This document shows, one piece after another, positions 38,857 to 62,472 of a stretch of DNA of 64,000 bases (the first letter of the stretch is position 1; every line of letters begins with the position of its first letter). The notes below the pieces were generated by a model. The model did not search any database, was not told the DNA's origin, and saw only the letters and a list, made by a program, of their open reading frames with translations. The stretch is from Leuconostoc citreum (GTDB taxonomy: Bacteria > Bacillota > Bacilli > Lactobacillales > Lactobacillaceae), in NCBI RefSeq assembly GCF_004354555.1, contig NZ_PUFH01000004.1, positions 62,001-126,000 on the forward strand, read 5' to 3'. The position numbers and the translations under genes are program-made.

Positions 38857-38885
38857 TTGACATTTGCATCTTAAAATTATAAAAT
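38857..38885 (+). promoter_or_regulatory. promoter of the suf leader/operon
   Basis: Perfect TTGACA at 38857-38862, 17-bp spacer, TAAAAT at 38880-38885. Start near 38892, giving a leader of about 210 nt before the first large gene. Confidence 0.85.
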
Positions 38886-38930
38886 ATCTCATATTAATAA
38901 CATTTTTCTAATTGCATAGGGGACAGCAAC

Positions 38931-38987
38931 ATGGCAATGAAATATATTAAGCAATTGAAAAAGCAACTCAACCTACTCATTTCCTAA
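38931..38987 (+). CDS. suf operon leader peptide (18 aa)
   Basis: ATG 38931 follows AGGGGAC by 6-7 bp. The 18 codons end ...Gln-Leu-Asn-Leu-Leu-Ile-Ser-stop, with Leu codons CTC, CTA and CTC. The codons CTA CTC ATT form the 5' arm of the first hairpin, and the stop codon overlaps its loop. The C-terminal Leu-Asn-Leu-Leu run is shared with the leu operon leader peptide at 45395. This is the arrangement of a translation-coupled attenuator. The peptide itself is probably not functional. Confidence 0.75.
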   Translation: MAMKYIKQLKKQLNLLIS

Positions 38988-39089
38988 TGAGTAGGCATTT
39001 TGAGCACTGTCTACGGTATCTGGTAAGTACGTAGACAGTTAGTTGATGGGAAAAGCATTCTAACTGATCAGCAGTTAGAATGCTTTTTT
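38972..39089 (+). promoter_or_regulatory. transcription attenuator in front of the suf operon
   Basis: Hairpin 1: CCTACTCATT (38972-38981) with AATGAGTAGG (38986-38995). Hairpin 2: ACTGTCTACG (39006-39015) with CGTAGACAGT (39030-39039). Terminator: AGCATTCTAACTG (39054-39066) with CAGTTAGAATGCT (39072-39084), then T-run. A second copy of CAGTTAG at 39036-39042, inside the end of hairpin 2, can pair with CTAACTG (39060-39066) as antiterminator. GTAGG of hairpin 1 can pair with TCTAC of hairpin 2. These exclusive pairings match leader-peptide attenuation; not tested by folding software. Confidence 0.75.
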
Positions 39090-39102
39090 GTTAGGAGAAA
39101 AG

Positions 39103-39948
39103 ATGATTGTAGATATTGATAAATTTATAAATACACGTAAACAGCTAAAAATATCACAAGTGGCCTTATCGGCAGGCATTTGTACCCAAGCAACCTTGTC
39201 GAAATTTGAGCATCAACAGCAGACACCTTCTCTAGAAATAACAAGTGCACTTTGTTCACGACTTAATCTGACCTTAGATGATATTTTTATTATTGAGAAT
39301 TCGAACAAGCGCCAAGAAGAATATCTTTTACAACAAATTTTTAGAGCATTAAGTAGCCAAAATGATATGTTATTTGAAACAGTTGTTAGAACTTGTGATG
39401 TGAGACAGTTTTCTTTGGCGGGATATCAGTTACTTCAATTGTGTCGTTACTTTAAAGTGGTATTAGTGACAAAAAACACAAAACAGGCGAAAAAATTATT
39501 GAAAACAATCGTAGTTAGTAAGTTAACGACGGCGCAATGTTATTTTTTTTATGCGATTACGGCGTATTATTATCAATTAATTGGGCGCACAAAGGAAGCA
39601 GGACAAATAGTGTCCGACTTGTTAGAACGAAAAGATAGTATAATGTCTGGTGAGTATAGCATTGTGAAAATCATGACAATTTACACCATTGCTATGTCAC
39701 AACGAGATATGCAACATACTCAAGCATCAGTCACTACGGCGGCAAAGGGTATTGCTTTATCAAATCAATATGATCAAACAGCATTTTTAGAAAATTTTTT
39801 TTGGTTAATAATAGATGCTAGTCCGACGTGGTCTAGTCAGCATTTCGTTGTAACCGAACTAACTAAAAATGCGTGTTGCTTGGCTAAAATGCATGGCAAC
39901 CAGTGGATATTAGACAAAATAAATCAACAAAGTGGGGGAAAACAATGA
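39103..39948 (+). CDS. XRE-type HTH regulator with a helical repeat domain
   Basis: 281 residues. Residues 1-65 form a Cro/CI HTH (SQVALSAGICTQATLSKFEH), and the remainder is an all-helical, Cys-containing domain like the TPR part of Rgg/MutR/PlcR regulators. ATG 39103 follows TAGGAG by 5-6 bp; the upstream reading starts in the terminator T-run. It overlaps sufC by 4 bp (ATGA), so it is translated with the suf genes and probably regulates them or senses a peptide. Ligand unknown; several Cys residues could sense Fe-S or redox state. Confidence 0.85.
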   Translation: MIVDIDKFINTRKQLKISQVALSAGICTQATLSKFEHQQQTPSLEITSALCSRLNLTLDDIFIIENSNKRQEEYLLQQIFRALSSQNDMLFETVVRTCDVRQFSLAGYQLLQLCRYFKVVLVTKNTKQAKKLLKTIVVSKLTTAQCYFFYAITAYYYQLIGRTKEAGQIVSDLLERKDSIMSGEYSIVKIMTIYTIAMSQRDMQHTQASVTTAAKGIALSNQYDQTAFLENFFWLIIDASPTWSSQHFVVTELTKNACCLAKMHGNQWILDKINQQSGGKQ

Positions 39949-40751
39949 CAACATTACAAATTAAGAATTTACATGTGGCAGTCAGTGGCAAAGAAATACT
40001 AAAAGGCGTGAATTTAACAGTTCATACTGGCGAAATGCATGCCATTATGGGGCCAAACGGTACCGGAAAATCAACATTGTCTCAAGCTATCATGGGACAT
40101 CCAGCTTACCAGGTAACATCGGGAAGCATTACTTTAGATGGACAAGATTTATCAGAAATGGCTGTTGATGAACGCGCACGGGCGGGTTTATTTCTGGCTA
40201 TGCAATATCCATCAGAAATTCAGGGTGTCACTAATGCGGAATTCATGCGTGCAGCCATCAATGCGCGACGACCTGAATCCGATCAGATGAGTATTATGAC
40301 ATTTTTAAAGACCTTAGATCGTCAACGTGAGTTTTTATCGATGACATCGGAAATGGCAGAACGCTATCTCAATGAAGGTTTTTCAGGTGGTGAAAAGAAG
40401 CGAAATGAAATTTTACAAATGATGATGATTCAACCTAAAATTGCTATTTTAGATGAGATTGATTCAGGACTAGATATTGATGCCTTGAAAGTTGTGTCAC
40501 GAGGTGTCAACCATATGCGCTCAGATAACTTTGGCACATTAATGATTACACATTATCAACGGTTATTAGATTACATTGTCCCAGATTTTGTCCATGTTAT
40601 GATGGGTGGCAAAATTGTTAAAACGGGTACTGCAGATTTGGCAAAAAAGTTAGAGCTGGAGGGCTATGCTGGTTTACGTGATGAACTTGGACTGGATATT
40701 GTGTTAACTGACGAAGACGCTGATCGTCTTGTGGCGGTGAAGCATGAATGA
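39945..40751 (+). CDS. sufC: Fe-S assembly ATPase SufC
   Basis: 268 residues, ABC-type ATPase: Walker A GPNGTGKST, signature FSGGEKKR, Walker B AILDEIDSGLDIDAL. It forms the SufBCD scaffold complex in the cytoplasm. Overlaps the regulator and sufD genes. Confidence 0.97.
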   Translation: MTTLQIKNLHVAVSGKEILKGVNLTVHTGEMHAIMGPNGTGKSTLSQAIMGHPAYQVTSGSITLDGQDLSEMAVDERARAGLFLAMQYPSEIQGVTNAEFMRAAINARRPESDQMSIMTFLKTLDRQREFLSMTSEMAERYLNEGFSGGEKKRNEILQMMMIQPKIAILDEIDSGLDIDALKVVSRGVNHMRSDNFGTLMITHYQRLLDYIVPDFVHVMMGGKIVKTGTADLAKKLELEGYAGLRDELGLDIVLTDEDADRLVAVKHE

Positions 40752-41910
40752 AGAAAGTCTACCCTTGCCTGAATTTACCAAGGTGAAGTATCGTACTTGG
40801 CAGTTAGATCAAATGAACCCTTCTCAGGCACAGAGCGCAACGTCCCATTTTTTAACAGACGAATTAGGCATTGAAGTAAGTGGAACAGCAACGAGCTATT
40901 ATTATTTACCAAAATATCTTGTTGCGCAAGGCGTGTTGCTGACCAACATCAATACTGCTCAATCACGTTATCCGCAACAATTGGATAAGCTGTTAGGACA
41001 AGTCATTGCCAATAACACTGATCGACTAACAGCGCAAAATGCCCAGAAATTTAACACAGGCATCCTACTTTATGTGCCTGACCATACAGTGATTAAAGAC
41101 GTGATCCATCTTAATTTGAACCAATTATCGGTTGGCGGAAATGATTATATTGCGCGGGTATTAGTTTATGTTGGTCGTCAGTCATCAGTCACTATTTTAC
41201 AATCAGCCCACACAATAGGCTCTGACACAACAAAAGTATCGCTTGTCGTTGAAGTGATTGCTGACGTTGGCGCTTCGGTTCACTATGCTAATCTAGACGC
41301 GTTCTCTGGCAAAACAACAGCTTACATTCATCGTGAAGCTGATATTCGTGACCATGCTACCTTAGATTGGTCAAATGTGGCTTTTAATGATGGCCAAGTG
41401 GTGACCAAATTAGTGAGTCACTTGAATGGTGAGGGGGCTGTTTCACATGCGAATATTATGGCGATGACCCACCATAAACAGACGCAGGGTTTTATGACGA
41501 ACATGGTTAATCGTGGCCGTCATTCACTTGGTCATATTTATCAACGTGGTGTCATTTTGAATCATTCAACCTTGGTTTTTAACGGTATCGGACAAATCAT
41601 TAAGGGTGCCAAGGGTTCTGATGCACAACAAGAATCACGTGTATTGATGCTATCACGTCGGGCACGTGGCGATGCAAACCCTTTGCTCCTCATTGATGAA
41701 AATGATGTCACTGCTGGGCATGCAGCATCAGTTGGTCGCGTTGATGAAAATCAAATGTATTACTTAATGAGTCGTGGTTTGAGTGAAAAATTGGCACGAG
41801 AACTAGTTATTCGCGGTTTTATGGGTAATGTTTTAGCAGAAATACCGACAAACAGAGCACAGCAAGCTGTTATTAATGCGATTGCGGAGAAACTAAAAAA
41901 TGAAAATTAA
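40744..41910 (+). CDS. sufD: Fe-S assembly protein SufD
   Basis: 388 residues of the SufBD beta-helix family. The C-terminal conserved part (GAKGSDAQQESRVLMLS, NDVTAGHAASVGRVDENQMYYLMSRGLS) matches SufD, including the His in GHAAS that helps hold the nascent cluster. It overlaps sufC by 8 bp and sufS by 11 bp. Confidence 0.95.
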   Translation: MNEESLPLPEFTKVKYRTWQLDQMNPSQAQSATSHFLTDELGIEVSGTATSYYYLPKYLVAQGVLLTNINTAQSRYPQQLDKLLGQVIANNTDRLTAQNAQKFNTGILLYVPDHTVIKDVIHLNLNQLSVGGNDYIARVLVYVGRQSSVTILQSAHTIGSDTTKVSLVVEVIADVGASVHYANLDAFSGKTTAYIHREADIRDHATLDWSNVAFNDGQVVTKLVSHLNGEGAVSHANIMAMTHHKQTQGFMTNMVNRGRHSLGHIYQRGVILNHSTLVFNGIGQIIKGAKGSDAQQESRVLMLSRRARGDANPLLLIDENDVTAGHAASVGRVDENQMYYLMSRGLSEKLARELVIRGFMGNVLAEIPTNRAQQAVINAIAEKLKNEN

Positions 41911-43114
41911 ACCATCAGATTTTCCTATTTTGGCACAACAGGTCAACCAACATCGACTAGTGTATTTGGATAGTGCAGCAACATCTCAGAAACCAGCAAG
42001 CGTACTGGCAGCTTTGAACCAATACTATACCCATGACAATGCAAATGTTCATCGTGGTATTTATGATTTATCACAACGAGCCACCACTGCTTACGAATTA
42101 GCACGAGATAAAGTACAACATTTTATCCATGCTAAGAGACGTGAAGAAATTCTTTTTACGCGTGGTACAACCGAAGCGATTAATTGGGTTGCGCAAACTT
42201 ACGGTATGACGCATATCAATCCCGGTGATGAAATTGTTATTTCTTATATGGAGCACCATGCCAATATTGTGCCGTGGCAACAACTTGCTAAACAACGTGG
42301 TGCAACCCTAAAATATATTAGGTTAGCTGCCAATGGCACATTAGATATGCACGATGCAGACAAACAAATTACGGCACGTACTAAAATTGTTTCTATCACA
42401 CAGGCGTCAAATGTGTTGGGTGTTGTTAACCCAATTAAACAAATCGCAGCTTTGGCTCATGCTCAACACGCAGTATTGTTGGTTGATGGTGCGCAATCTG
42501 TACCCCACATGCCAATTGATGTGCAACAATTAGATGCTGATTTTTTTGTTTTTTCAGGTCATAAAATGATGGGTCCAACAGGAATTGGCGTCTTATATGG
42601 CAAACGTGACCTTTTGGCACACATACCACCTGCGCAATTTGGTGGTGAAATGGTAACAACTGTTTCACAAAATGACGCTCATTTTCAACCATTGCCTTGG
42701 CGATTTGAGGCTGGGACACCTAATATTGCTGGAGCCATTGGTTTGGGTGCTGCAATTGATTATCTACTGACATTAGATATGGTGGAAGTTGCCAAATATG
42801 AGCAACAACTAATACAATACGCATTAGAGTCATTACATAAAATTGATGCTATTACGGTTTATGGTGCTGATGATGTCCACCAAACAGGGATTATTACTTT
42901 TAACATGGCAGGCGTACATGCACATGATTTAGCCACGGCATTAGATCAATTGGGTATTGCAGTACGTGCTGGGCATCACTGTGCGCAGCCACTAATGCGT
43001 TATTTAGGCGTAGCTGCAACGGTGCGCATGAGTTTCTATGTGTATAATACGCTTGACGATATTGATGACACTGTTGCTGCAATAAAGGAAATAAAGGATT
43101 ACTTTAAAAAATGA
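41900..43114 (+). CDS. sufS: cysteine desulfurase SufS
   Basis: 404 residues, PLP enzyme that frees sulfur from cysteine. Lys222 in SGHKMMGPTGIG is the PLP Schiff-base residue, and Cys361 in RAGHHCAQP is the persulfide cysteine. N-terminal LDSAATSQKPASVL is typical of group II desulfurases. It overlaps sufU by 4 bp, its sulfur acceptor. Confidence 0.97.
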   Translation: MKIKPSDFPILAQQVNQHRLVYLDSAATSQKPASVLAALNQYYTHDNANVHRGIYDLSQRATTAYELARDKVQHFIHAKRREEILFTRGTTEAINWVAQTYGMTHINPGDEIVISYMEHHANIVPWQQLAKQRGATLKYIRLAANGTLDMHDADKQITARTKIVSITQASNVLGVVNPIKQIAALAHAQHAVLLVDGAQSVPHMPIDVQQLDADFFVFSGHKMMGPTGIGVLYGKRDLLAHIPPAQFGGEMVTTVSQNDAHFQPLPWRFEAGTPNIAGAIGLGAAIDYLLTLDMVEVAKYEQQLIQYALESLHKIDAITVYGADDVHQTGIITFNMAGVHAHDLATALDQLGIAVRAGHHCAQPLMRYLGVAATVRMSFYVYNTLDDIDDTVAAIKEIKDYFKK

Positions 43115-43551
43115 CTTTGCATAATTTAGATCAAATTTATCGACAAGCTGTACTTGATTATGCCCAACATCCCCACCACAAAGCACCAGTGACAAAAGCG
43201 GATAGTTGTCAAATTGAACAGTATAATCCAACTTGTGGGGATATTATTCGGTTAGCGCTGCCAGTTGAACATCAAACAATAGTTGCTTGCCATTTCGATG
43301 GTGAGGGATGTGCTATTTCGACGGCTTCAGCATCAATAATGATGGACCTTATTATTGCGCAATCGTTAGTCACCACTAAAGAACAAATCAAATTATTTTC
43401 GCGTATGGTGACAGGAGATGATGGTGACTATAAAATGTTGGGGGATGCACAAATGTTAGCTGGCGTCACACAGTTTCCAGCACGTGTGAAGTGTGCCACG
43501 TTGCCATGGCACGCATTGTCGCTGTTAATACAACAAATTGAGGAGGAATAG
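43111..43551 (+). CDS. sufU: sulfur acceptor SufU
   Basis: 146 residues of the IscU-like Gram-positive SufU type: Cys in NPTCGD, in GEGCAIS and in RVKCATLPW, plus the Asp of the first motif, which bind zinc and accept sulfur from SufS. The 18-21 residue insertion between the last two Cys that marks SufU is present. Confidence 0.96.
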
Positions 43552-43555
43552 TGTC

Positions 43556-44986
43556 ATGGAAATTGACCGCCAAGAAGCATTGGAACACACAAAAATAGCA
43601 ATTCAAACCAAAAAAATAGACGAATTAGGCCGTCAAGATGATTATCAGGCTGTTTTTTCAACTGGACGTGGGCTTAACGAATCAGTTATTCGCGCGATTT
43701 CTGCTGAGAAAAAAGAACCAGAGTGGATGCTTAACTATCGGTTACGTGCTTATCAATCTTATTTAGATATGCCGATGCAAACTTGGGGACCAGATTTAAG
43801 TGACATCGACTTTGATGCTATCTATTATTATAATAAACCAACACATGAAAAATATCGTGATTGGCAGGACGTACCAGATACTTTGAAACAAACCTTTGAA
43901 AGGTTGGGTGTGCCAGAAGCTGAGAGGCGTTGGCTAGCAGGCTCTTCAGCACAATACGAATCGGAAGTTGTTTACCATCGGATGAAAGCTGAATTTGAAA
44001 AAACAGGTATCGTATTCACGGATACAGATACAGCAGTACAAGAATATCCAGAGTTAGTGAAAACTTATTTTGGTTCGTTAGTAAAACCGACCAATAATAA
44101 ATTAGCGGCCTTGAATGCGGCAGTATGGTCAGGTGGCACTTTTATCTATGTGCCAAAAGGTGTCCATGTCACTACGCCCATTCAATCTTATTTCAGAATT
44201 AATACAGCGAATGAAGGACAGTTTGAGCGCACACTAATTATTGTTGATGAGGGGGCACATGTTGACTATGTTGAAGGGTGTTCGGCACCAATGTATTCTG
44301 GTGATGCATTGCATGCGGCCGTAGTGGAAGTGATTGTTAAAAAAGACGGCTATTGCCGATATACAACCATTCAAAACTGGTCAAATAACGTTTATTCTTT
44401 AGAAACTAAGCGTGCTGCTGCACATGAAAATGCCACAATGGAGTGGGTGGATGGCAATTTTGGCTCAAAAACAACCATGAAGTATCCATCAGTTTATTTG
44501 GAAGGTGAAGGCGCGCGAGGAACCATGCTGTCCATTGCTGTTGCTGGACAAGGGGTGACACTAGATTCTGGTGCGCAAATGATTCATCATGCTAAAAACA
44601 CCTCTTCGTCGATAGTGTCTAAATCAATAGCTCATGATGGCGGTGCAACGGATTATCGTGGCACGATTAAATTTGGCCGTGAATCTGATGGGTCTTTTGC
44701 CCATGTTGAATGTGATACGATTTTGATGGATGACCAGTCATCTGCTGATACGATTCCCTATAATACCATTTTGAATGGCAATGTATCGATGGAACATGAA
44801 GCTAAAGTATCACGTGTGTCTGAAGAACAGCTTTATTATCTTATGAGTCGTGGTATTTCTCCCGAAAAAGCCACAGAAATGATTGTTATGGGATTTGTGG
44901 AGCCCTTCACAAAAGAATTGCCAATGGAGTATGCTGTAGAATTAAATCGTCTCATGAAATTTGAAATGATTGGATCGGTGGGTTAA
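43556..44986 (+). CDS. sufB: Fe-S scaffold protein SufB
   Basis: 476 residues. Contains the SufB core ([24 protein letters not shown] with the conserved Cys, [44 protein letters not shown]). GAGGAGG precedes ATG 43556. With SufC and SufD it builds clusters for targets such as LeuC in the next operon. Confidence 0.97.
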
Positions 44987-45292
44987 ATGGCTACAATTGA
45001 AGAAGCTATTATGGCACAGTTGCGTATGGTTGTTGATCCTGAATTACAGATTGATATTGTCAATCTTGGTTTAATCAATCAGGTTACCTATGAAGAAGAT
45101 GGACATGTCATCATTAATATGACGTTAACGACAATGGGATGTCCGTTAACATCAGTATTAGAAACGATGATTGACGATGCGCTTAAAATTTTACCAGAAG
45201 TTAATACGACAGAAATTGTATTGCAGTGGGAACCAGCATGGACCATAGATCGCATGTCACGTTACGCTAAAATGGCATTAGGCTTAAAATAA
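44987..45292 (+). CDS. DUF59/MIP18-type Fe-S assembly factor (SufT-like)
   Basis: 101 residues with the DUF59 pattern: VVDPELQIDIVNLGLI near the N-terminus and the conserved Cys in TTMGCPLTS. The family helps in Fe-S protein maturation. Its ATG follows the sufB stop without a gap, so it ends the suf operon. I see no strong terminator after it. Confidence 0.9.
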   Translation: MATIEEAIMAQLRMVVDPELQIDIVNLGLINQVTYEEDGHVIINMTLTTMGCPLTSVLETMIDDALKILPEVNTTEIVLQWEPAWTIDRMSRYAKMALGLK

Positions 45293-45394: not shown

Positions 45395-45466
45395 ATGATG
45401 AGTAGCATGACAACACAAATAAATAATAGTGCAGTGCGCCTTCTCAACTTGCTTAGAAACTCCTAA
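45395..45466 (+). CDS. leu operon leader peptide (23 aa)
   Basis: ATG 45395 (or 45398) has AAAGGA about 11 bp upstream. The peptide ends Arg-Leu-Leu-Asn-Leu-Leu-Arg-Asn-Ser-stop, with control codons CTT, CTC, TTG and CTT. An in-frame ATG at 45353 would extend it but has no ribosome site. It works by stalling at Leu codons, as in known leucine attenuators. Confidence 0.8.
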   Translation: MMSSMTTQINNSAVRLLNLLRNS

Positions 45467-45580
45467 CAAGTTGGGCTTTTAAGGCTGGTTTGTTGGGTTA
45501 AGTTAAACTCTAACGGCTGGCTGACGAGGACATGTGATAATCCCAAACAAGCCGTTTAACGGCAGGTTTGGGATTTTTTT
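45445..45580 (+). promoter_or_regulatory. leucine attenuator of leuABCD
   Basis: Hairpin 1 pairs CAACTTG (45445-45451, the Leu codons) with CAAGTTG (45467-45473). A candidate antiterminator pairs GGCTGGTTTGTTGGG (45483-45497) with CCCAAACAAGCC (45542-45553). The terminator pairs AATCCCAAAC (45539-45548) with GTTTGGGATT (45566-45575), has an inner GCCG/CGGC stem, and ends in seven T. The antiterminator takes the terminator's left arm, so only one can form. Confidence 0.8.
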
Positions 45581-45598: not shown

Positions 45599-46777
45599 AT
45601 GACAAATCAAATCACTTTTTATGACACAACCATGCGTGATGGAGAACAAACCATAGGGGTAAATTTTACGATTGATGAAAAAATAAAATTAGCGCAAGCA
45701 CTAGAAAAATATGGGGTGTCTGCTATTGAGGCTGGTTTTCCAGCAGCATCCGAGAAAGACTTTGATGCTGTGGTAGAAATTTCAAAGGTAGTACACACAG
45801 CTAAGGTTGTTGGTCTTGCGCGCCTTGTGCGTCAAGACATTGATGCCGTGGTTGCAGCCACACAGCAGGCAAAGCACCCCATGATCCATGTTTTTATTGC
45901 CACATCACCAGTGCATCGTACCTATAAGCTACATATGTCGCCTTCAGAAATTATTGAAAAAGTAATATCAGATATTCACTACACAAAAACAATGATGTCA
46001 GAAATAATTTTTTCACCAGAAGATGCCACGCGAACTGAACCAGAATTTTTAGCGCGCGTGATTCAAGCAGCCATTGAATCCGGCGCAACGATGATTAATA
46101 TACCGGATACCGTAGGCTACGCCACACCATATGAATATGGTGAACTGTTTGAGTATTTACGCGAACATGTACGAGATTTTGATCAAGTGACTTGGGCCAC
46201 ACATACACACAATGATTTGGGAATGGCTAACGCCAATGCATTGGCAGGTATTATGCACGGGGCTACAGAAATTCAAGGCACAATTAACGGTATAGGTGAG
46301 CGTGCGGGGAATGTCGATATTATTGAGGCTGCTGCAGCTATTTATGTTCGACGACAAACTTTTGCGAAACAAACAGCAATTATTTTAGAGCAATCAAAGC
46401 ACATTTCGGATATTGTTGCTCAGGCCACTCACATGCCGGTAGCTAAAAATAAACCCATCATGGGGCGTAACGCGTTTGCACATGAGTCAGGCATTCATCA
46501 AGATGGGTATCTTAAGAATCCTGAAACTTATGAAATCTTGAGACCGGAAATGGTCGGGACGCAAGCCTCATTACCACTAGGAAAACTATCCGGTTCGCAT
46601 GCTGTCATGAATCAGTTGCTCTCTCTGGGATATCATATTTCTCGTCAAGATATGGTGACCATTCTACCTATTTTTAAGCGTATTGCTGAAAAAACATCAA
46701 CGGTTTCCGATCAACAAATGCAAGATATGATGACCATGATTCAAACCAACAAGATGATGGGGGCCATTCATGAGTGA
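45599..46777 (+). CDS. leuA: 2-isopropylmalate synthase, short form
   Basis: First committed step of leucine synthesis. Catalytic TIM barrel: FYDTTMRDGEQTIGV with the metal Asp/Arg, and HTHNDLGMANANAL with the metal His pair; the linker subdomain has NAFAHESGIHQDG. ATG 45599 has AAGGGGG upstream; the in-frame ATG at 45581 abuts the T-run. At 392 residues it ends where the C-terminal leucine-binding regulatory domain (about 120 residues) would begin. Inference: no leucine feedback on the enzyme, so control rests on attenuation. Confidence 0.93.
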   Translation: MTNQITFYDTTMRDGEQTIGVNFTIDEKIKLAQALEKYGVSAIEAGFPAASEKDFDAVVEISKVVHTAKVVGLARLVRQDIDAVVAATQQAKHPMIHVFIATSPVHRTYKLHMSPSEIIEKVISDIHYTKTMMSEIIFSPEDATRTEPEFLARVIQAAIESGATMINIPDTVGYATPYEYGELFEYLREHVRDFDQVTWATHTHNDLGMANANALAGIMHGATEIQGTINGIGERAGNVDIIEAAAAIYVRRQTFAKQTAIILEQSKHISDIVAQATHMPVAKNKPIMGRNAFAHESGIHQDGYLKNPETYEILRPEMVGTQASLPLGKLSGSHAVMNQLLSLGYHISRQDMVTILPIFKRIAEKTSTVSDQQMQDMMTMIQTNKMMGAIHE

Positions 46778-47840
46778 CATCAAAAAAATAGCGATATTAA
46801 AAGGCGATTACATTGGACCGGAAATTATGGCTGCAGGGCTGGCAGTTTTAGAAGCTGCGACGGCGGGTTCTACTTTTAAATATGAGTTAATCGACCTGCC
46901 TTTTGGTGGGGATGGCATAGACCGTGTGGGCGATCCGCTACCTGAAAAAACGATTCAAGTAGCGAAACAATCGGATGCCGTCTTATTGAGCGCGATTGGT
47001 GGTCCTAAATGGGATGACGCAACGAAACGACCCGAAGAGGGATTACTTGGTATGCGATCGGCTTTAGGATTGTTCGCAAATATCCGACCAAGGCATATCA
47101 CAGCAGCACAAATTGCGCGTTCACCACTAAAACAATCGTACGTTGCAGACACCGACTTTGTGATTGTACGTGAATTAACGTCAGGCGCTTACTTTGGTGA
47201 ACCCCGTGTGTTAGCAGCAGACTTTGCAAAAGATACTATGTATTACAGTACTTCTGAAATCACTCGAATCATGCAGACAGGCTTTCAACTTGCCGAAAAA
47301 CGACGACAACATGTCACGATTGTGGATAAATCAAATGTGCTGGCAACGTCTAAATTGTGGCGTCAAATTGCAACAGAAGTGGCAAAATCCTACCCGGATA
47401 TTTATGTTGATTATTATTATGTCGATGCTATGTCGATGGCTATTATTGCTAAACCTACAGCCTTTGATGTGATTATCACGCCGAATCTATTTGGTGATAT
47501 TCTCAGTGATGAGGCAGCACAAATTACTGGGTCTATCGGACAAATACCTTCAATGTCAGTTGGTCAAGGCGGGCCGAATTTATATGAGCCAATTCACGGA
47601 TCGGCGCCAGATATCGCCGGAAAAGGTATTGCGAATCCAATGTCAATGATTCATGCTGTAGCGATGATGCTTTCCGAAAGTTTTGGGGAAGTGAACTTGG
47701 CCAGGCAAATTACTGATGCTGTATCGGCTGCCATTAATGCTCAGGTTATGACGCCTGATATGGGTGGTCATGATACAACGCTCACAGTAACTAACTACGT
47801 GATTCAATCTATTCAACATGTGAGAGAGGGTAAGCAATGA
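46770..47840 (+). CDS. leuB: 3-isopropylmalate dehydrogenase
   Basis: 356 residues, NAD-dependent. Substrate and metal residues are visible: [13 protein letters not shown], the Lys/Asn in [13 protein letters not shown], and the metal loop [16 protein letters not shown]. The C-terminus has [18 protein letters not shown]. Overlaps leuA by 8 bp and leuC by 4 bp. Confidence 0.97.
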
Positions 47841-49204
47841 AGCAAACACTATTTGATAAAATTTGGAATACGCATGTAGTGGCTGGTGAGCCGGGTGAGG
47901 CACAACTGATTTACGTCGATTTACATTTAATTCATGAGGTGACTTCACCACAACCGTTTGATGGTTTGCGTAGTACAAAGCGGCAATTACGACGACCAGA
48001 TTTAACCTTTGCCACAATGGATCATAATGTACCAACAAAAGACATTTTTAATATTGAGGACCAAATGTCTCGTTTACAAATGGATACTTTGGTAAAAAAT
48101 GCGCAAGAGTTTGGGGTGCCATTGGCTTCAATTGGTGATGATAAGCAAGGCATTGTCCATGTTGTTGGTCCAGAGCGCGGGCTAACACAACCGGGAAAAG
48201 TCATTGTTTGTGGGGATTCACATACAGCTACACACGGTGCATTTGGCGCCATTGCGTTTGGTATTGGTACATCTGAAGTTGAACATGTGATGGCTACGCA
48301 AACGATTTGGCAAGTTAAACCAAAAACGATGGGCATTAAAGTAACAGGTGAAATGCCAAAAAATACTTATGCTAAAGATATTATTATGGCTATTATTGCA
48401 GAACATGATGTCTCTTTTGGTACCGGTTATGCGATTGAATTTTATGGTGAAACGATTGAGGCGCTGTCTATGGCTGCACGGATGACACTATGTAATATGT
48501 CAATTGAAGCAGGATCAAAAACTGGGATGGTGAAGCCAGACCAGACCACATTTGATTATATAGCCGGTCGAGAGTTTGCACCAAAAAAATTTGACTCGGC
48601 TAAGGCTTATTGGTCGCAATTTTATACAGACGATGAAACGGCCTTCGATGAGATTATCACTTTTGATGTCAGTCACCTTAAGCCGATGGTAACATGGGGA
48701 ACAAATCCGGGGATGGCAACTGCAGTAAATCAAATATTACCGGAAATAAGAGATGATAATGATCGCGCAGCATACGATTATATTGGTTTAGAGCCAGGAA
48801 TACCAGTGACCGATATTCCACTAGACTATATTTTTATTGGCTCTTGCACAAATAGTCGCTACGAAGACTTGGCAATCGCTGCTGCCATGATGAAAGGGCA
48901 GCATTTGGCACCCAATATCACAGCATGGATTGTGCCAGGGAGTCGCGCCATTCGTAATCGTGCGATTGCAACCGGTATTGCTAAAATTTTTGAAGCGGCG
49001 GGTTGCGAATGGCGAGAACCTGGGTGTTCAGCATGTTTGGCGATGAATCCAGATAAAATACCAGCCGGCAAGCATGTGGCTTCCACGTCTAACCGTAATT
49101 TCATTGGGCGACAAGGGGCTGGCTCTCGTACACATTTGGCTTCACCAGCAATGGTTGCTGCTGCGGGTATTGCCGGACACTTTGTTGATATTACAGAAAT
49201 CTGA
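47837..49204 (+). CDS. leuC: 3-isopropylmalate dehydratase large subunit
   Basis: 455 residues, aconitase family. The [4Fe-4S] ligands are Cys in [12 protein letters not shown] and the pair in [26 protein letters not shown] is near the N-terminus. It needs Fe-S assembly, encoded directly upstream by the suf operon. It partners LeuD. Confidence 0.97.
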
Positions 49205-49220
49205 TTTAAGGGGGGCGTCT

Positions 49221-49805
49221 ATGGAAGCATTTATTAAAGCAACAGGTCGTGCGGTGGTGATCCCAAACGACAGTATTAATACCGACATCATTTTACCAAA
49301 GCAGTTTTTGAAAAATATATTGAAAACGGGGTTTGGGCCACATTTATTTTATGATTGGCGCTATCTTGCAGATGGCAAAATAAACCCGAAATTTGAGCTC
49401 AATAAGCCAGAACATGCTGGTGCTACTGTACTGATTACTGGGGTTGATTTTGGTTCTGGTTCGTCGCGCGAACATGCGGTATGGGCACTTACTGATTATG
49501 GCTTTCGTGCGGTGATAGGTGGCAGCTTTTCAGATATTTTTTATATGAATGCCACTAAAAATGGGTTACTACCTATTGTGTTACCAGAAGCAGAACGACA
49601 AATTTTACGTGATATAAAACCTGATGAAACAATAACGATTGATTTGCCAAATCAAATAGTCACTTATAACAATAATCAATTTCACTTTGATATTAATCCG
49701 CAGTGGCAAGCAAAGTTTATTAATGGTGAAGATGATATCGATGTCACAATGAAATTTGAAGCAGCCATTACAGCGTTTGAAAAAAAACAACCAAACTTTG
49801 ATTAG
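49221..49805 (+). CDS. leuD: 3-isopropylmalate dehydratase small subunit
   Basis: 194 residues with the swivel-domain signature [17 protein letters not shown] and the N-terminal [23 protein letters not shown] precedes ATG 49221; a longer reading from inside leuC is rejected. Last of the four leu genes. No ilv genes follow, so branched-chain synthesis here is leucine only. Confidence 0.97.
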
Positions 49806-50744: not shown

Positions 50745-51770
50745 ATGATAGAAAAACAGCACCGCACCACATTACAAACCGATATTCTACGGTATAGTAG
50801 CTTTATTTTACTCATTTTAGTAGCTGGTATTTTGCTACTAATGTCAGGTGTTGCAAAATATCCTGAAATCATAGGAATGGCTTATTTATCCTTTACATTT
50901 GGGTTGCGTCATGCCTTTGATGTTGATCACATTGCAGCGATTGATAATATGACACGTAAAATGCTGAACGATGGCAAAAATACACGTGGTGTGGGCTTTA
51001 GTTTTTCATTTGGACATTCAATGGTGGTTGTTTTAATGGCATTGTTGACGGTTTTATTTGTGGCGTGGGCGAAGCAATCCATGCCGATTTTTGAGCAAAT
51101 TGGCGGTGTTTTTGGGACAATGATAGCTGCTGTTATGCTGTTATTATTGACGATTGTTAATACGTTTATTATGCGTGGTATTTGGCGAGAGTTTAGGCAT
51201 ATTGGGCGTGGTGGACAGCAACACACGACTGATGAACGATATCAGCAATCAGCAATCTATCGCTTTTTTTTAAAGTTGCTAAAATTAATTAAACACAACT
51301 GGCAAGTTGCAATTGTTGGCTTTTTGTTTGGTTTGGGTTTTGACACAGCGACGCAAATTGCCGTATTAGCGACATCAGCGACGGCTGCAAATGCAGGCAT
51401 TGCCTGGTATACCACGCTTGCTTTCCCGCTGTTATTTACAGCTGGTATGTGTTTGATGGACACAGTGGATGGTTTTTTCATGAGTACCACCTATACTTGG
51501 ATTGTGTCGTCATCGTATCGTAAGGTTTACTATAACTTGATTTTGACAGGTATTTCGATTATGGCTGCAGGCTTTATTAGTTTTGTTGATTTCATTCAGT
51601 CAATCAGTGTGATGCTTAATTGGCATAATAGTTTGACCGATTGGGCACAAGCTTTAGATTTCAATAAATTAGGGATTATTTTAGTGGCAATATTTGCCGT
51701 AACATGGATTATTGCCTTAACGTTGTGGCGTGTACTAAAGCTCTCTGAGAAAGATGTGTTATCTCACTAA
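50745..51770 (+). CDS. nickel/cobalt transporter, NiCoT family
   Basis: 341 residues with about eight membrane segments. The family signature is complete: FGLRHAFDVDHIAAIDN in segment 2, FSFGHSMVVVLM, GFLFGLGFDTATQIA and LFTAGMCLMDTVDGFFM. It imports Ni2+ or Co2+. A GGAGAAT site precedes the ATG. No urease or hydrogenase genes are near. Confidence 0.94.
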   Translation: MIEKQHRTTLQTDILRYSSFILLILVAGILLLMSGVAKYPEIIGMAYLSFTFGLRHAFDVDHIAAIDNMTRKMLNDGKNTRGVGFSFSFGHSMVVVLMALLTVLFVAWAKQSMPIFEQIGGVFGTMIAAVMLLLLTIVNTFIMRGIWREFRHIGRGGQQHTTDERYQQSAIYRFFLKLLKLIKHNWQVAIVGFLFGLGFDTATQIAVLATSATAANAGIAWYTTLAFPLLFTAGMCLMDTVDGFFMSTTYTWIVSSSYRKVYYNLILTGISIMAAGFISFVDFIQSISVMLNWHNSLTDWAQALDFNKLGIILVAIFAVTWIIALTLWRVLKLSEKDVLSH

Positions 51771-61995: not shown

Positions 61996-62472
61996 ATGTC
62001 AGAAACAGTTGTTGAAAGTTTCACACTAGACCATACAAAGGTTAAAGCACCTTATGTTCGTGTCATCGAGACACAAAGTGGCCCAAATGGTGGAACCATT
62101 ACTAATTACGATTTACGCTTAACCCAGCCTAATGAAACGGCTATCGAAACTGGGGGATTGCATACGCTAGAACATCTTTTTGCTGGCTTAGTGCGTGATG
62201 AAATTGATGGCATTATTGATATGTCGCCATTTGGCTGCCGTACTGGGTTTCATGTCATTTCTTGGGTAAATTATGATTCAGAAACTTTGGCCAAGGTCTT
62301 TAAGAAAGTCTTGGAAAAAATAGCCAGTGATGATATTACTGAGGTACCTGCTGCGGAAATTGAGAGTTGTGGTAACTATAAAGATCATAGCTTACATTCT
62401 GCTAAAGAATGGGCCAAACTAATTTTGGCTCAAGGCATTTCAAGTGATGCGTTCGAACGTCATGTTGTATAA
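61996..62472 (+). CDS. luxS: S-ribosylhomocysteine lyase
   Basis: 158 residues. Metal ligands His56 and His60 (HTLEH) and the later Cys in ESCGNYKDH; the catalytic Cys in PFGCRTGFH. Recycles S-ribosylhomocysteine to homocysteine and the AI-2 precursor, feeding the methionine genes on both sides. AAAAGGAGA precedes the ATG. Confidence 0.97.

Follow-up and report, generated by a model that had tools for sequence, protein, structure and literature searches.

The iron-sulfur assembly genes of Leuconostoc citreum lie behind a leader that combines a short reading frame containing Leu codons with hairpins and an intrinsic terminator, which raises the question of whether synthesis of the Suf machinery could be set by the charging of tRNA-Leu. 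Operons for Fe-S assembly are known to be regulated by iron, oxidative stress or Fe-S status, with IscR, Fur and similar regulators as mediators. The locus was analysed within a window of 64,000 nucleotides (positions 62,001 to 126,000 of contig NZ_PUFH01000004.1, assembly GCF_004354555.1), whose numbering is used below. The original prediction had described a leucine-type leader-peptide attenuator in front of the suf operon. In the reading preferred here, to which we assign a probability of about 80% on sequence evidence, the leader would be a his-like, six-arm, ribosome-mediated attenuator of the branched-chain amino acid (BCAA) type, leucine-specific in this organism, and would control an XRE-suf unit so that Fe-S supply follows the need of LeuCD (and of IlvD).

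The leader lies on the forward strand and begins with a sigma-70-type promoter, TTGACA-17-TAAAAT (38857-38885, 11/12 matches). This is the best of 30 sites in 7.5 kb; as shuffled sequences are expected to yield 23.9 such sites, promoter-like matches constitute weak evidence by themselves. Similar promoters were seen by eye upstream of the leaders of relatives. The leader peptide ORF (38931-38987) encodes MAMKYIKQLKKQLNLLIS in 18 codons, followed by a stop codon at 38985. Its control codons, Leu13 (CTC, 38967), Leu15 (CTA, 38973) and Leu16 (CTC, 38976), are placed by folding inside the 5' arm of hairpin 1 (arms 1:2, 38967-39004), in which 38967-38981 pairs with 38986-38995 and 39000-39004. Hairpin 2 (arms 3:4, 39006-39039) joins 39006-39015 to 39030-39039, and the intrinsic terminator with its U-tract (arms 5:6, 39049-39089) joins 39049-39066 to 39072-39089. 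The motif CAGTTAG in the 3' part of arm 4 (39036-39042), of which a second copy starts at 39072, can pair with CTAACTG of arm 5 (39060-39066). The promoter, the 18-codon Leu peptide, the Leu codons within a hairpin arm, the two hairpins, the terminator and the competing CAGTTAG and CTAACTG motifs are thus all found where the original prediction had placed them. Absent from it was the pairing that completes the switch: arm 2, GTAGGCA (38991-38997), can pair with arm 3, TGTCTAC (39008-39014), on the 5' side of hairpin 2, giving the antiterminating state. The folding energy of the leader is -59.4 kcal/mol, compared with -36.2 +/- 3.9 for shuffled sequences (z = -6.0; 0/200 shuffles as low). At gathering score, Rfam gave four matches in the window, none of them over 38857-39102, and no T-box (RF00230).

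The genes behind the leader all lie on the same strand. The suf operon does follow, as had been proposed; its first gene, though, is an XRE/HTH_3 regulator (39103-39948, PF01381), and the unit is therefore XRE plus suf. It comprises sufC (39945-40751, TIGR01978), starting about 850 bases downstream of the terminator, sufD (40744-41910, PF01458), the cysteine desulfurase gene sufS (41900-43114, PF00266), sufU (43111-43551, PF01592), sufB (43553-44986, TIGR01980) and a sufT-like gene of the DUF59/MIP18 type (44987-45292, PF01883; TIGR02945 below its cut-off). XRE and sufC share four bases, and the suf genes themselves are contiguous or overlapping. Immediately downstream lies a related leader and attenuator (45395-45580), which is matched at E 3.5e-5 by R1, the covariance model built from the suf leaders, and precedes leuA, leuB, leuC and leuD (45599-49805; leuD named from its position), LeuC being a [4Fe-4S] client. 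This leu leader encodes MMSSMTTQINNSAVRLLNLLRNS; it had been predicted to share the ending of the suf leader peptide, and while it does contain Leu-Asn-Leu-Leu, it ends in Arg-Asn-Ser. LeuA (45599-46777) has 392 amino acids and matches approximately the first 383 of the 514 positions of the 2-isopropylmalate synthase model. The missing C-terminal part we take to be the feedback domain, which LeuA thus seems to lack, so that leucine control may rest on attenuation. A NicO/NiCoT metal transporter gene (50745-51770) stands behind the leu cluster; in the window there is no gap for a leader of its own.

Conservation of the leader was followed in 19 genomes of the genus, the window's own included, and in 251 genomes of the family for the wider search. 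A DNA-level search of 60 genomes found no copy of the leader in 18 same-genus relatives, 16 of which are carriers; the leaders of relatives were located through protein searches and synteny. The gene sufC is present in 17 of the 19 genus genomes, the other two (G007 and G012) giving only distant ABC ATPases. In all 17 the XRE orthologue adjoins sufC (stops interrupt it in G018), and a leader of the same build lies upstream of XRE-suf; R1, for which these leaders served as the source, marks them as well. The carriers include L. rapi, L. carnosum, L. miyukkimchii, L. falkenbergense, L. holzapfelii, L. pseudomesenteroides, L. litchii, L. gelidum, L. inhae and L. palmae, the last of which gives the closest SufB (94%) among the matches listed. 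The predicted leader ORF has 17-22 codons in 17/17. Inspected by eye, several leaders have a plausible ribosome site, and at least two, falkenbergense and pseudomesenteroides among them, have no clear Shine-Dalgarno sequence. The two genomes without sufC are also without leuC, ilvD and the NiCoT gene, and the joint absence of suf, leuC and the NiCoT gene may reflect the deletion of one block. No such leader was found before suf in Convivina (two species), F. ficulneus, F. tropaeoli and L1_55_11, where suf and leu are adjacent. Of ten genomes with species names, four (L. fallax and three Fructobacillus) carry suf without leuC, and R1 found no suf leader in them. Judging from the sequences of the sample examined, only Leuconostoc sensu stricto has the suf leader.

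Structural conservation was assessed in an alignment of the 17 leaders (16 distinct rows), the tested structure being the consensus of that same alignment. For hairpin 2 and the terminator, 94.8% of cells are paired, and 43 cells are changed on both sides; the corresponding count is 14.5 +/- 2.5 for shuffles and never above 14 for slid versions. Such changes occur in 9 of the 14 terminator pairs, and the terminator holds 9 of the 10 pairs that show them; the terminator covaries. The alternative pairings are possible in 17/17 leaders (7-8 of 8 pairs for 2:3 and 7-9 of 9 pairs for 4:5), with a both-side change in 1 of 16 pairs and otherwise conservation and one-sided changes. Swapping arms among the suf leaders gave no covariation signal, since 5583 (2:3) and 12110 (4:5) of 20000 permutations were equal or better. 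The covariation expected by the original prediction is seen in the terminator, while 2:3 and 4:5 are conserved without covarying. A comparison across 44 leaders of four types (suf 17, leu 11, permease 10 and NiCoT 6; one permease and one leu leader, in which the arms were not located, were left out) showed that arm 2 pairs with its own arm 3 at a mean of -10.0 kcal/mol, as against -5.4 across types and -4.6 with shuffled sequences. The exceptions are the leu arm 2, which pairs slightly better with the permease arm 3, and the NiCoT type, which ties. The 4:5 pairing is little type-specific (own -8.8, cross-type -7.3, shuffled -5.5).

The spacing of the codons relative to arm 2 is also preserved. 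In 17/17 leaders, the distance from the first Leu codon to arm 2 is 16-20 nt, the pair of kept Leu codons spans the range of 13-20 nt before this arm, and the leader stop codon falls between 8 nt before the start of the arm and 2 nt inside it. The geometry suits the attenuation model: arm 2 would be covered by a ribosome at the stop codon and left largely free by one stalled at the Leu codons. Equilibrium folding of the stalled transcripts preferred 3:4 in 15/17 and placed 2:3 in the minimum-energy fold in 2/17, so that the antiterminator would have to win kinetically, by the order of synthesis.

Which amino acid is read is suggested by the peptides. Their first halves vary, while the C-terminal stretch is rich in Leu or in BCAA residues: of the last eight codons of the 16 distinct peptides (128 in all), 49 are Leu and 86 are Leu, Ile or Val. 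As the original prediction required of a leucine attenuator, Leu codons are kept in the related leaders. Two are present in 17/17, adjacent in 16 and one codon apart in holzapfelii. In both, C and T are fixed at positions 1-2 in 17/17, and position 3 takes all four bases (A9 T5 C2 G1 in one control codon, T9 C4 G3 A1 in the other). When hairpin 1 was predicted by folding for each of the 17 leaders, six of them had the first control codon's third base unpaired, and the codon is still Leu. Keeping Leu while the third bases are free is to be expected if the helix is not the only constraint and the amino acid counts as well. The leader of the window has Leu in 4 of 18 codons and a single Ile near the end, and leucine is our best guess for its signal.

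The Ile and Val codons vary with the presence of ilvD, which is found in 6 of the 19 genus genomes and is absent from the window's own. The last ten codons contain 4, 4, 4, 5, 4 and 3 Ile/Val in the six ilvD-bearing genomes and 1, 2, 0, 3, 1, 3, 3, 3, 1, 1 and 3 in the eleven suf-bearing genomes without the gene (one-sided Mann-Whitney P 0.0009; P 0.0004 after correction with a midpoint-rooted FastTree tree of SufC plus LeuC), the ten-codon window having been picked after the peptides were known. Taken over the entire peptide, the P values are 0.034 (one-sided) and 0.0013 (tree-corrected). Neighbours in the tree illustrate the tendency: ILVLLVI in G004 (ilvD) versus ISARLLM in G006 (no ilvD), and ILIILLIS in G015 (ilvD) versus ILSNLLIN in G001 (no ilvD). 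The exceptions are the four genomes of the gelidum-inhae group (G005, G010, G011 and G018) and palmae (G009), which have three Ile/Val and no ilvD. Leu counts are alike in both sets. For species with ilvD, codon content points to Leu plus Ile/Val as the probable signal. Five of the six genus genomes with ilvD have this gene next to the XRE leader and pointing away from it, an arrangement that marks the XRE protein as a candidate for regulating ilvD.

From these features the following course of events can be proposed. When leucyl-tRNA is plentiful, the ribosome would reach the stop codon at 38985 and cover arm 2; 3:4 would then pair, and the terminator 5:6 would form before XRE-suf. When leucyl-tRNA is scarce, the ribosome would stall at Leu codon 13, 15 or 16 inside arm 1, leaving arm 2 to pair with arm 3 and releasing arm 4 to arm 5. 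With 4:5 paired, transcription would proceed into XRE, sufCDSUB and sufT. Suf synthesis would rise together with that of the leu operon under its own related leader, and LeuCD, the client presumed to matter most, would obtain its [4Fe-4S] cluster, supply thereby following need. In relatives with ilvD, the same leader would probably read Ile/Val as well.

Relatives of the leader occur before other genes. The R1 model includes the leader-ORF columns, and its matches therefore lean towards Leu codons. In the 251 family genomes it recorded 51 places in 25 genomes, 11 of them being the suf leaders from which it was built. Inspection of 21 others placed six before NiCoT genes, 11 before a PTS_EIIC_2-type permease, one before an XRE gene beside ilvD, one before ilvD (G233), one before an MhpD-like gene and one at a contig end without a clear gene. 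Ten further places came from the search of the 19 genus genomes: two before MhpD-like genes, one each before a permease, brnQ (G013, E 2e-4, a single case) and NiCoT, three with BCAA peptides and no gene within the stretch taken, and two false. These two (E 0.0005 and 0.0015) were rejected as tRNA-Lys genes followed by a hairpin. The NicO, PTS_EIIC_2 and brnQ labels rest on Pfam for one protein each, other members being assigned by resemblance. On their sequences, the related leaders before suf, leu, ilvD, brnQ, the permease and NiCoT form one leader family.

Several members of this family deserve separate mention. In at least six relatives the NiCoT gene stands behind a related leader of its own (e.g., MNKTIKKMNHSLLYLLLS), and L. 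miyukkimchii has, beside ilvD, another NiCoT copy that is also preceded by one. In the window's genome, a Leu leader with MTNTFNKQVNNALLLNLLLI (G000:C6:604480-604702) stands before the PTS_EIIC_2-type permease; among the places inspected, leaders before this permease occur in ten genomes of the genus and in two further genera, and the substrate of the permease may be related to branched-chain amino acids. The leaders before brnQ and the MhpD-like gene are Ile-rich. Before the MhpD-like gene the leader reads QIIISIIIIS or similar; the gene product, of about 267 amino acids, had no match in Pfam and scored below the cut-offs of hydratase models. This leader and gene occur also in G007, where suf and leuC are lacking. 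In F. tropaeoli, a related leader is followed by an XRE homologue and a sufT-like gene, divergent beside ilvD. This homologue is 33% identical to that of the window and contains one in-frame stop, and the sufT-like gene behind it is open. A second sufT-like gene follows ilvD, the two giving 54% and 47% in tblastn against the window's SufT. A sufT-like gene after ilvD is also present in L. rapi and L. carnosum. We put at even odds the broader proposal that one Leu/BCAA attenuator family could define a cofactor regulon, joining leu, ilvD and brnQ to suf, sufT and NiCoT, with Leu or Ile/Val codons gained and lost to suit whichever of the Fe-S dehydratases LeuC and IlvD a species retains. If true, amino-acid starvation would directly provision metal cofactors.

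The link between suf and leu extends to other genera. In 11 stretches, ten of which were chosen for the closeness of leuC and sufB and one (G106) by genus, so that they do not give a frequency, suf and leu adjoin. Seven of them have leu behind suf; in three, from genomes of two genera, sufC follows leuABCD after about 20 nt; and one stretch has the order leuABC-sufT-leuD. In other genomes, such as G241, suf and leu are apart. A T-box-like match precedes a leuABCD-sufCDSUBT string in three genomes of two other genera (63.3, 77.7 and 80.5 bits; gathering score 93); no leucine T-box is claimed there, as no Leu specifier could be read and the triplet looks by eye like AAA/AAG. The relation of Suf to these clients has support from S. 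aureus, where the activities of LeuCD and IlvD are decreased in the absence of SufT (PMC4982691).

Three other explanations bear on the same observations. The attenuator could be real and have the XRE regulator as its physiological target, suf being expressed mostly from internal promoters and only loosely controlled by leucine. The position of XRE as the first gene behind the terminator favours this, as does F. tropaeoli, where the related leader precedes the XRE homologue and the sufT-like gene and suf lies elsewhere without a leader; the XRE frame of that species contains a stop, however, while its sufT-like gene is open, and in G018 XRE is broken, yet leader and suf remain. The overlap of XRE with sufC and the tight packing of the suf genes also speak against it, and between the terminator and the start of sufC there is no promoter-like site of at least 10/12 (one of 9/12 is present at 39293). 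Taken together, we regard XRE as unlikely to be the main target. It is only somewhat less doubtful that the leader responds to shortage across the three branched-chain amino acids and not to that of leucine specifically. The 3-5 Ile/Val in the last ten codons of the ilvD-bearing species and the Ile-rich leaders before brnQ and the MhpD-like gene are in line with such a signal, but the window's leader, with its four Leu and lone Ile in a genome without ilvD, fits it poorly, and the two Leu codons are the invariant part.

The remaining explanation holds that the structure is an ordinary promoter-proximal terminator, or answers another signal (iron, Fe-S status or oxygen), the Leu codons being a by-product of hairpin 1. 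Because they overlap a paired arm, RNA constraint could keep CTNCTN, and the want of covariation in 2:3 and 4:5 agrees with this. Against it, Leu is kept despite varying third positions, even at an unpaired base, the Ile/Val content tracks ilvD, and relatives of the leader stand before BCAA genes; we consider a by-product highly improbable. The leucine-type leader-peptide attenuator of the original prediction is thus supported by the kept Leu codons, the covariation of the terminator, the match between Ile/Val and ilvD, and the BCAA-gene relatives, and we retain it as the probable control of XRE-suf.

Control by the tRNA charging of the client enzyme's end product would follow a different logic from that of the iron, stress and Fe-S status regulators: scarcity of the product would order the cofactor. 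It would also allow a test of whether leucine synthesis is the main purpose of Suf in these bacteria. The series of species, in which those without ilvD have fewer Ile/Val codons, offers a natural experiment on how the specificity of an attenuator follows metabolism.

The proposed device resembles several known systems. The his and leu leaders of E. coli and Salmonella likewise consist of a short ORF with control codons in arm 1, serial arms and an intrinsic terminator, and have mutually exclusive pairings of the kind proposed here, the E. coli his leader having six arms in series. They control biosynthetic operons, whereas the target here would be an operon for cofactor assembly that opens with a regulator gene. 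The T-box (RF00230) is a common Firmicutes device for amino-acid genes; the suf leader, in contrast, would act through a translated peptide. A further comparison is the window's own leu leader (45395), which was found by the suf-leader model and shares Leu-Asn-Leu-Leu in its peptide, but has other arm sequences and controls leuABCD. Leader-peptide attenuators of Gram-positive BCAA operons, as described in PMC6123439, are experimentally supported in S. aureus and L. monocytogenes and recognized by sequence in L. lactis and others. They combine, as here, a BCAA-rich peptide with a terminator in Firmicutes; they control BCAA biosynthetic operons, in contrast to the leader here, which stands before suf. 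A connection between leucine synthesis and iron is known in fungi, where, according to PMC6844326, LeuB cross-regulates leucine synthesis and iron homeostasis. Among the listed titles and abstract openings of open-licence papers, there was no suf operon under a leader-peptide attenuator. The mechanism proposed for the Leuconostoc leader is therefore a known one, and suf as its target is apparently new.
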